Under the pieces are notes generated by a model. That model saw nothing but the letters and a program-made list of their open reading frames with translations, was not told where the DNA came from and ran no database searches. From NCBI GenBank assembly GCA_017478085.1, contig JAFVEE010000048.1, positions 1 to 33,418 of the forward strand: a stretch of 33,418 nucleotides of DNA, written 5' to 3'. The position numbers were made by a program, and so were the translations under genes. Positions 16,794-27,815 of this stretch are shown in pieces (the first letter of the stretch is position 1; the number at the start of each line of letters is the position of its first letter). The stretch comes from Prevotella sp. GTDB taxonomy: Bacteria; Bacteroidota; Bacteroidia; Bacteroidales; Bacteroidaceae.

Positions 16794-16896
16794 AACGAGC
16801 ACTCCGTTACCCCACAACGGAGCCTCCATTCCACCGCAACGGAGCCTCCATTGAAATGAAACGGAGCCTCCATTAAGCCATAACGGCCCCTCCGTT
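16794..16896. repeat. five-unit palindrome array with exact 22-bp period
   Basis: Fifteen-base units of the form AACGGAGCCTCCRTT start at 16794 (AACGAGCACTCCGTT), 16816, 16838, 16860 (these three AACGGAGCCTCCATT) and 16882 (AACGGCCCCTCCGTT). The start-to-start distance is exactly 22 each time, close to two helical turns. The spacers are 7 bases and differ. The array fills the gap between two convergent genes, so it is not at a promoter. Related sequence occurs at 5240-5254, and the last unit's CATAACGGCCCCT (16879-16891) recurs at 18510-18522. Confidence 0.85.
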
Positions 16897-16910
16897 GTCC
16901 CAGGCCGATG

Positions 16911-20110: not shown

Positions 20111-20135
20111 AAGGCTCCAACGAACGATGAAAACG
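20111..20135. repeat. left copy of imperfect 25-bp direct repeat
   Basis: This 25-mer (beginning AAGGCTCCAACGA and ending ATGAAAACG) matches 22933-22957 at 23 of 25 positions. The two copies bracket the restriction-modification gene and its terminator. They could be recombination sites or copies of a dispersed sequence. Confidence 0.7.
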
Positions 20136-22932: not shown

Positions 22933-22957
22933 AAGGCTCCAACGAAAAATGAAAACG
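22933..22957. repeat. right copy of imperfect 25-bp direct repeat
   Basis: Matches 20111-20135 at 23 of 25 positions in the same orientation. Together the copies bracket about 2.8 kb holding the restriction-modification gene, its promoter and terminator. Confidence 0.7.
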
Positions 22958-25463: not shown

Positions 25464-27815
25464 TTACATAAACACATCGAGCGTGCCGCCTGCCGTGATG
25501 TCGGCGTGTCGTAGCGTGTATGACTTGTAGGGCTTGCCGTTCAACTGCATCGACCGGATGTAAAAGTCGGCAGGCTTTTTCTTGTGTGCGTTGATGCTGA
25601 AGCACTTGCCGTCGGCCAAGTGGATGGTGACACGGCGGAACAGCGGCGTGCCGATGGCATACTCGCCGCCAACGGGACAGACAGGATAGAAGCCCATTGA
25701 CGAGAATACGAACCACGAGGACATTTCGCCGCAGTCGTCGTTGCCGGCATAGCCGCTCGACGTGGTGTTGTAGAGCTGGGTGCATATCTGGTGAACCAAC
25801 TGCTGCGTCTTGCGGGGTTGTCCGGCATAGTCGTAGAGATAAGCCACATGGTGGCTGGGCTCATTGCCGTGTACGTACTGTCCGATGAAGCCCGAGGCAT
25901 TGTCGTTTTTCTCGCCGCTCTGGTCGGTGAGGGTGAAGAACTGGTCGAGCCGCTTGCAGAACTGCTTAGGCCCGCCATGGAGGGCAATGAGGCCGTCGAT
26001 GTCGTGCGGCACGTACCATGACCACTGCCAGGCGTTGCCCTCAGTGTAGGGGTTGCCACCATTTGCCCCATAGCGCAGAGGGTCGAAAGGCGTGAGCCAC
26101 TGTCCGTTGGATGTGCGGGCCTGGAAAAATCCGTTCTCAGGATTGAAAAGGTTACGGTAGTTCTGGCTACGCTTCATAAAATGATCGTAGATGTCTTTGC
26201 GGCCTAAGTGCCCCGCCAACTGGGCCACGCACCAGTCGTCGAACGCCTGCTCCAGCGTGATGCTGACCGACTGCGACTGCAGGTCTTCGGGCATGTAGCC
26301 ATACTGCTCCCATAGGTCGAAAGGCGAACCAGGATGGGAGGTGGTGGCGGAAGCGAGGCAGGCATTAAAAGCCTCACCCCCAACCCCTCTCCCAAGGAGA
26401 GGGGAGTAGTCACCTTTGCTATTGGATTTTTCATTAGCATAACTATATACTCCCCTCTCTTTGGGAGAGGGGCCAGGGGTGAGGCTCTTTATGATTGCAT
26501 CCACCACCACAGGTATAGCGTGGTTGCCTATCATGCAATAATTGTCCTGGCCCCATAGATCCCAGATGGGCAGATAGCCGTAGGTGTCATAATGGGCCAT
26601 CATAGAGCGTACAAACTGCATGTTCTGCTCCGGGGCTATGAGCGTGTAAAGGGGATGGGCGGCACGGAAGGTGTCCCATAGTGAGAAGGTGGTGTAGTAG
26701 GTCTGTCCCTTGGGCATCCGGCGTGTGGTGTAGTCAGTGGCAGTGTAGTCACCACTGACATCGCTCATCGTATTGGGCTGGATGAAAGCATGGTAGAGGG
26801 CCGTGTAGAACTTCTGCATATCCTGCTCGTCGCCATCCACCTCAATACGACTGAGCATGCGCTCCCACAGCTCGTCGGCCTCACGCACATACTGGTCGAA
26901 GTCCCATGAGCGGGCTTCAGCCTCCATGTTCAGGCGGGCATTCTCGATACTTGTGGTGGAGAGAGAAACTTTTACAATGAGAGCCTCACCCCCAGCCCCT
27001 CTCCCAAGGAGAGGGGAGTGGTTACCTTTGCTATTGATACTTTCGTTAGCATAACTATATATTCCCCTCTCCTTGGGAGAGGGGTCGGGGGTGAGGCTTA
27101 ATCTTGCCTTTAGTGCCTTGCCATTGACCACATTCGTTTGGCCATAATTGTGATCGCCGTCGGAAATGGCGTATGAGGTGATGGGTTGTGACAGTTCTAT
27201 ATGGAAATAGACGCGGCGAAGTTTGGCCCATCCCGTGATGATGCGGTAGCCCTCGATGACGGTCGGACTTACGATGCGCAGTTGCGACTGAATAATCCGA
27301 CGCTCCCAAGAGCCCTTCGGTGCCGAGTGGTCCAGGTCGATGAGCAGTTGATGGAGCTTTCCCCCTGGATAGGTGTAGCGGTGAATGCCAGTACGTGTCG
27401 TCGCCGTCAGTTCGGCGCGGATGCCATCCTCCAGTGTGATGGCGTAGTAGCCGGGGTGCGCCTCCTCCTGTTCATGACGGAGGGCCGACCATGTATTGCC
27501 TGTCGTGGTGGGCATCAGCAGCAAGTCTATGAGGTCACAGGCTCCCGTACCGCTCAGTCGGGTATGGCTGAAGCCGCATAGGTGTGAGTCGTTATAGTCG
27601 TAGCCCGATGCCTTGTCCCAGTCGGGCGAGACCTGTGTGTCTGGGCTGAGTTGCACCATGCCGAAAGGCACCGTGGCTCCAGGATAACAATTGCCTGACA
27701 GCGAGTTCTCAACGGCACCCGTGCCGATGAACGGATTCACAAACTTAGTGTACTTGCCTGCCTGCATGGTAGTCACTCCAGCCATCATGGCCAGTAGAAC
27801 GACGATTGTTCTCAT
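25464..27815 (-). CDS. GH92 alpha-mannosidase with two in-frame repeat insertions (783 aa)
   Basis: Secreted calcium-dependent exo-alpha-mannosidase family GH92, which trims mannose from N-glycans or yeast mannan. The signal peptide (MRTIVVLLAMMAGVTTMQA) is followed by the family opening KYTKFVNPFIGTGAV. Likely catalytic acid E592 is in EGNAWQW, and candidate base Asp D693/D694 is in GNDDCGEMSSW. About 39 extra residues sit at about 239-278 and at about 444-483. Both have the form SLTPxPSPKERG...SPLLGRGxGGEA, are encoded by the 115-bp palindromic repeats (26983-27097 and 26371-26485), and interrupt otherwise normal family sequence. The frame is open throughout, so the protein could still fold if both insertions lie in surface loops. 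The start is fixed by AGGAG before the ATG and the promoter behind it. Confidence 0.94.
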   Translation of the reverse strand: MRTIVVLLAMMAGVTTMQAGKYTKFVNPFIGTGAVENSLSGNCYPGATVPFGMVQLSPDTQVSPDWDKASGYDYNDSHLCGFSHTRLSGTGACDLIDLLLMPTTTGNTWSALRHEQEEAHPGYYAITLEDGIRAELTATTRTGIHRYTYPGGKLHQLLIDLDHSAPKGSWERRIIQSQLRIVSPTVIEGYRIITGWAKLRRVYFHIELSQPITSYAISDGDHNYGQTNVVNGKALKARLSLTPDPSPKERGIYSYANESINSKGNHSPLLGRGAGGEALIVKVSLSTTSIENARLNMEAEARSWDFDQYVREADELWERMLSRIEVDGDEQDMQKFYTALYHAFIQPNTMSDVSGDYTATDYTTRRMPKGQTYYTTFSLWDTFRAAHPLYTLIAPEQNMQFVRSMMAHYDTYGYLPIWDLWGQDNYCMIGNHAIPVVVDAIIKSLTPGPSPKERGVYSYANEKSNSKGDYSPLLGRGVGGEAFNACLASATTSHPGSPFDLWEQYGYMPEDLQSQSVSITLEQAFDDWCVAQLAGHLGRKDIYDHFMKRSQNYRNLFNPENGFFQARTSNGQWLTPFDPLRYGANGGNPYTEGNAWQWSWYVPHDIDGLIALHGGPKQFCKRLDQFFTLTDQSGEKNDNASGFIGQYVHGNEPSHHVAYLYDYAGQPRKTQQLVHQICTQLYNTTSSGYAGNDDCGEMSSWFVFSSMGFYPVCPVGGEYAIGTPLFRRVTIHLADGKCFSINAHKKKPADFYIRSMQLNGKPYKSYTLRHADITAGGTLDVFM
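26371..26485 (-). repeat. 115-bp palindromic element, copy A, inside the GH92 gene
   Basis: Imperfect terminal inverted repeats of about 38 bases begin GCCTCACCCC and end GGGGTGAGGC, each containing its own small palindrome (CCCTCTCCC with GGAGAGGGG). The AT-rich centre is CACCTTTGCTATTGGATTTT onward. It is translated on the minus strand without a stop. No clear target-site duplication is visible. Confidence 0.88.
26983..27097 (-). repeat. 115-bp palindromic element, copy B, inside the GH92 gene
   Basis: Same length, same arm sequence and same centre as copy A, with scattered substitutions. It lies in the same orientation and in the same reading frame, giving a similar peptide (TPDPSPKERGIYSYANES). 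The two copies are 497 bases apart. Confidence 0.88.

Follow-up and report, generated by a model that had tools for sequence, protein, structure and literature searches.

The window, the entire 33,418-nucleotide stretch of a Prevotella sp. contig analysed here, carries a GH92 glycosidase gene that hosts two palindromic repeats (Table 1). The encoded protein scored 642 bits against TIGR01180 (cut-off 249.55), and Pfam placed a GH92 N-terminal domain at residues 25-241 and the catalytic domain at residues 292-783. The two copies were 88% identical over 124 bp in the repeat comparison within the window and 90% identical over 117 bp (E = 1e-39) in a search of the whole genome, a likeness far beyond chance. 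Each is read without a stop as 39 codons, both in one shared frame, and the resulting peptides are SLTPDPSPKERGIYSYANESINSKGNHSPLLGRGAGGEA and SLTPGPSPKERGVYSYANEKSNSKGDYSPLLGRGVGGEA. These results confirm the core of an earlier note on this DNA, which had recognized two repeats in the same frame of a single GH92 gene, each adding about 39 residues. The length of 115 bp given there proved one base short at each end, the real repeats measuring 117 bp with the terminal AG and CT included. The copies had also been described as lying in the same orientation; they are indeed read in one frame, but orientation says little about palindromes, and the 120-bp stretches containing the two copies are 80% complementary to each other. 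As a single strand, copy 2 is predicted to form one near-continuous hairpin of -87.8 kcal/mol over its 117 nt, a value calculated for the native sequence alone, without shuffles.

Table 1. Coordinates of the GH92 gene and its two palindromic copies in the window.
Feature	Position	Strand	Basis or composition
GH92 glycosidase gene, 783 aa, host of both copies	25464..27815	-	ORF; Pfam and TIGR01180 matches
Copy 1 (protein order), 117 bp, residues ~240-278	26982..27098	-	halves 27061-27098 and 26982-27019, core 27020-27060
Copy 2 (protein order), 117 bp, residues ~444-482	26370..26486	-	halves 26449-26486 and 26370-26407, core 26408-26448

Next to the first large ORF, the window also has a tandem array (226-470) that repeats every 49 bp. 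At 16794-16897, AACGGAGCCTCCATT is part of a repeat present in four copies at 22-bp steps, and a 25-bp repeat (20111-20135 and 22933-22957, 92% identical) flanks an ORF of 833 aa, which presumably encodes a restriction-modification methylase.

The loops of the GH92 protein were compared with the solved structure 6f8z_A, a distant relative, so that ordinary loop variation may contribute to the differences. The alignment spans query residues 18-235, 275-447 and 481-779. In the first gap (236-274), within which copy 1 falls, 39 query residues face 9 in the relative, and in the second (448-480), which copy 2 covers, 33 face 5; the copies thus bring a surplus of about 30 and 28 residues, and part of the native loop is missing. 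Native loops of equal length in homologues, raised in the earlier note as a possible objection, are not present in 6f8z_A at these sites. The insertions are less clean than had been proposed, since extra residues occur at both sites but a few native residues were replaced, and the protein was not simply interrupted. A search for GH92 orthologs in 249 genomes of the genus at a very strict threshold (E <= 1e-200) returned only the gene of the window itself.

The unit of the dispersed family is a half of 38-39 bp, in which the tag AGCCTCACCCCC and two free bases are followed by a small hairpin (CCCCTCTCC-loop-GGNGAGGGG) and then AGT. Each 117-bp GH92 copy has a 41-bp core between two inverted 38-bp halves. 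The initial view of the whole palindrome as the unit therefore holds in that paired palindromes are real, but the basic unit is the half, which is also found solitary. Halves occur singly or as outward-facing inverted pairs, and the pairs are often 117 bp long. Summed over two genome groups, neighbouring halves 60-140 bp apart faced outward in 47/49 cases (direct in 2), those 141-400 bp apart faced outward in 26/34 (direct in 7, inward in 1), and those less than 60 bp apart were direct in 14/16. On five viral contigs (L366, L371, L373, L379 and L392), the tag is expanded as a 26-bp tandem array, the length of which varies between related contigs.

Exact matches to a 21-base half motif were present in 54/120 genomes of the genus and in 32/395 Bacteroidota genomes, the window's own being included in both counts; the reversed motif, used as a control, gave 0 in every row listed. 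Titles accompanied 80 of at least 116 stretches matched. Among the titled matches listed, most belonged to Prevotella, Prevotellaceae or Bacteroidaceae, many from the rumen and a few cultured; Hallella (including the cultured Hallella mizrahii), Hoylesella, Segatella, Capnocytophaga, Flavobacterium, Chitinophaga and Cytophagales were also represented, as were records titled Lachnospiraceae, Saccharibacteria and Streptomyces. One Lachnospiraceae-titled contig (L320) is probably misbinned, judging from the compared stretch, in which it is 89% identical to L273, a Prevotella contig. The attribution of the element to the Bacteroidetes in the earlier note is supported by this distribution, both by the Bacteroidota genome count and by the titled carriers. 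The half motif was also found on 36 stretches of viral contigs, some in long frames, and two predicted viral contigs (L391 and L387) have in-frame copies inside long ORFs (1237 aa and 648 aa).

With one GH92 copy as the query, the window's genome (G000; 178 contigs, 76.6% complete) yielded 54 matches, a number in which many places appear once for each strand. A looser scan of this genome found a coding frame bridging 21/34 places, a count that omits two loci with flanks that score as non-coding (L067 and L075) and includes two weak resemblances (the second place of L063, and L076). A stricter scan, which replaced an earlier census rule that had given 18/36 units in frame, found 16/25 units bridged in frame by coding sequence. 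By either count, the copies in this genome are not confined to the spaces between genes.

The stricter scan covered 230 units from 18 genomes of the genus, picked mostly for high copy number and partly sampled; singles were accepted only without a mismatch in an 18-base motif, and 3 units near contig edges were set aside. Coding sequence bridged 85/230 units in frame, and 3 others lay unbridged in same-strand coding sequence; the remaining units were intergenic (74), had coding sequence on one side (67) or lay between opposite genes (1). No sampled unit was in a gene in G003 (0/16), G026 (0/22) or G016 (0/12), that is, in 0/50 together, with 30 loci scanned out of 115 matches for G003 and G026. 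In the 14 genomes besides these three and G000, 69/155 units were in frame. The proposed repeat with a protein-compatible frame is thus borne out by the 85 in-frame units, but not throughout the genus, as all sampled units of some genomes lie outside genes. Genic copies nearly always preserve the reading frame. For a set of named genomes, 134 halves in 116 loci were collected with a 38-bp pattern; among the matches listed, 31/134 halves were in frame, 23 weakly so and 80 not, according to a scoring rule that undercounts pairs.

A codon boundary marks the beginning of 72/85 in-frame units in the 18 genomes. In 68 of these 72, made up of 40 pairs and 28 sense singles, the peptide is SLTPxPSP or a near variant, and the other 4 are antisense singles reading TPLxxxRGxGGEA; the sense direction was found in 30/37 in-frame singles. 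These phase counts include orthologous and paralogous insertions more than once, and hence no weight is placed on small p-values. The consensus half is open in five of six frames, so an open frame alone has no power to explain the phase bias. In the named genomes taken by the 38-bp pattern, the bias towards one phase is weaker, the in-frame halves among the matches listed comprising 7 in sense-0, 15 in anti-0, 6 in anti-2 and 3 in sense-1.

Genic and other copies also differ in the way that translation would demand. Among pairs of at most 180 bp, frame-0 stops on both strands occurred in 5/43 genic versus 14/27 other copies, and among single halves, a stop lay within 12 nt of AGT in 2/37 genic versus 29/103 other copies; the classes were defined by the open frame, and the contrast in stops is therefore partly built in. 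Removal of the copies from the RNA, ribosomes that pass over them, or broken or misassembled genes would leave the copies untranslated, and the very strong RNA hairpin predicted (-87.8 kcal/mol) would be in keeping with this. We consider this highly improbable: skipping would make the preservation of frame and the avoidance of stops needless, two genomes, one of which (G117) is a single contig, share their GltB insertions, and Era and like hosts still score above equivalog cut-offs.

The latter holds for Era, LeuS (part), Mfd (part) and MiaB with the insert, which all exceed NCBIfam equivalog cut-offs; DnaG exceeds a domain cut-off, with the insert outside the matched part. Pfam identified LpxB, a PyrC-like amidohydrolase, CarA together with CarB, and GltB as hosts, the inserts of the amidohydrolase and GltB being located outside the Pfam-matched domains. 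LeuS and ManA have extra residues compared with solved relatives at the positions of the copies. Housekeeping proteins are thus among the hosts, and they are still recognized as members of their families. Further hosts, named by eye, may be an ABC permease, an NtrC-type regulator, Ddl and Vsr. CarA and CarB form a single ORF in 8 junction rows found, some of them overlapping, and the linker between them holds a copy in 5 junction rows from 4 genomes. The element was rejected as the cause of this fusion, since G081 has the fusion without a copy. A continuous CarA-CarB ORF was seen at L172, L209, L225, L358, L440 and L457, with or without the linker element.

The dominance of one phase despite five open frames out of six, and copies that recur at a shared site across species (Era, GltB and CarA-CarB), would be expected of useful inserts, the peptide acting as a linker or loop under selection and altering the host protein. 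This is nevertheless very unlikely in our judgement. The hosts have many unrelated functions, amino-acid changes have taken several Era copies away from the repeat, other species have other repeats or an empty loop at that position, and the CarA-CarB fusion is also found without a copy.

Occupied and empty orthologous sites were available for Era, GltB and the pair L320/L273. In 19/50 Era genes, NKID is followed by an intact or eroded half; the sample includes 30 best hits to a carrier and is hence biased towards carriers. In its empty form, the Era site has the sequence ESDQKT, and the difference to most carriers amounts to 33 bp; L320 and L273 again show a 33-bp difference. The shared value at these two clean sites indicates the replacement of about 6 target bases, and no target-site duplication was seen at either, these being the only clean empty sites found. 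More distant genes showed larger replacements when compared; in one such case, a 114-bp pair had lengthened the sequence by a net 72 bp. None of the compared sites showed a segregating insertion. GltB of G117 and G034 has a common inverted pair of halves enclosing host protein sequence; GltB of G050 is without that pair and has halves at other loops.

On the Era tree, which is based on a single gene and has many weak nodes, the carriers need 14 changes against a shuffled mean of 15.4, and 255/1000 shuffles were equal or better. One old Era insertion inherited by descent is thus unsupported by this weakly supported tree. That the carriers do not follow it counts against selection on simple vertical inserts, and species may have exchanged the Era loop. 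Within Era, the loop that follows NKID (L112-L141 and L227-L246) is a hot spot, which in other species holds other short repeats or palindromes, e.g. at L132, L135, L138, L237, L238, L241 and L246.

Spread with no dedicated transposase, through template switching or short-tract gene conversion at replication forks and aided by the hairpin, would account for the clean cases, where the insert takes the place of target bases and no duplication is seen, for the inverted halves enclosing host sequence in GltB, and for the tag expanded in tandem. It does not predict the outward order at 141-400 bp (26/34, with 1 inward), and near-identical copy families across a genome suggest an active process; we regard it as conceivable but rather unlikely. 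For a REP-like repeat, a Y1/RAYT transposase is the natural suspect. Tagged hairpin halves that occur as singles and inverted pairs, as in REPs, would suit a genuine REP/REPIN family whose mover is a RAYT (Y1/HuH transposase) of the same genomes. Y1_Tnp was found in 73/120 genomes of the genus and in 13/17 of those with at least 10 halves, and its association with the element is weak (39/54 element-bearing versus 34/66 other genomes of the genus, p = 0.025). However, the copy-richest genomes G003 and G026 (99% complete) had no Y1_Tnp match at E <= 0.001. Among 31 Y1 loci (30 of the matches plus the window genome's own), 28 had no half within the fetched flank, and two of the other three had 1 weak or near match each. 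The sole Y1_Tnp gene of the window's genome (L030, contig C148) lies between unrelated tandem and dispersed repeats. A RAYT as the mover is thus unsupported, and we consider a RAYT-driven family improbable. The replaced target bases favour template switching, and the strong outward order of pairs favours an enzyme that acts in trans on the hairpin; either may be what moves the copies.

Published descriptions portray the Rickettsia and Wolbachia palindromic elements (RPE and WPE) as palindromes of ~105-146 bp with open frames, located between genes and in frame in conserved genes (PMC2229807, PMC4224334). The 117-bp pairs described here likewise have long inverted arms (other pairs range wider) and lie in frame in conserved genes. 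The parallel with Rickettsia palindromic elements drawn in the earlier note is therefore apt: the Bacteroidota family works like the RPEs, with in-frame palindromes among its units, and is set apart by taxon. In contrast to RPE and WPE elements, its carriers are mostly Bacteroidota and not Rickettsia, the 38-39-bp half also occurs alone, and one phase dominates. REP and REPIN sequences with GTAG or CGTC tags are tagged hairpins of 20-40 bp occurring singly or as inverted dimers, with intragenic cases, many in replication and repair genes (PMC3733652). Our repeats resemble these in having a 20-40-bp hairpin with a constant tag, single or in inverted pairs, but inspection by eye shows AGCCTCACCCCC as their tag, with neither GTAG nor CGTC at the stem foot; GTAG follows the stem in some copies (GGGGAGTAG) and is inconstant. 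Also unlike in REP and REPIN sequences, no linked RAYT is flanked by copies (28/31 Y1 loci without a half), and 85/230 units are genic, an extragenic location applying to the sampled units of G003, G026 and G016. The family thus falls outside the REPs by its tag, location and linked transposase, and outside the RPEs by its taxon.

Open frames fused in frame to genes are also reported for small mobile repeats of the ERIC type in enterobacteria (PMC2759123, PMC2229807) and for the short repeats of Coxiella (PMC5896051). ERIC/RU-type repeats and MITEs are similar to the present family in being short, in frame in genes and provided with terminal inverted repeats; a possible difference is that here no target duplication was seen and about 6 bases were replaced at the two clean sites. 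Six exact peptide or DNA strings of the family were absent from the literature searched, which left out most subscription journals, and no description of this family in Bacteroidota was recognized in it.

We infer both the translation of the copies and their mobility. The latter had been proposed in the earlier note and is deduced from dispersal and patchiness; no mover was found in the analysed genomes. We conclude that the repeats are probably REP-like palindromes of Bacteroidota that spread in trans, replace few target bases, are filtered for frame by selection and are translated as near-neutral loops. A process acting on the hairpin half and driven from elsewhere in the genome would spread the copies, replacing a few target bases rather than duplicating the target. 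Selection would then remove insertions that bring a frameshift or a stop, which would account for the genic copies being in frame; it would explain the single phase only if the other peptides were much worse. The surviving inserts would be read as a hydrophilic loop rich in Ser, Pro and Gly, mostly SLTPxPSPKGEGS, and in the GH92 gene such an insertion would have happened twice. A more far-reaching proposal, which we put forward tentatively and hold to be doubtful, is that of a mobile element adapted to coding sequence. It would be a 13-codon cassette, with a half of 39 bp and a pair of 117 bp that are both multiples of three, mostly in one phase and orientation, which would enter by replacing few codons and not by ordinary transposition, and would supply loops and linkers to core proteins across the genus.

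In-frame palindromes have their best-known examples in Rickettsia and Wolbachia, where their presence could be put down to weak selection. The family described here is comparable and occupies core genes of Bacteroidota that come mostly from the rumen, a few of its carriers being in culture. With it, one can test the effect of such inserts (neutral, harmful or useful), their way of moving, and the route by which old proteins acquire new loops. There is also a warning for annotation: runs resembling SLTPxPSPKGEGS can be derived from the repeat, and are then no sign of homology.
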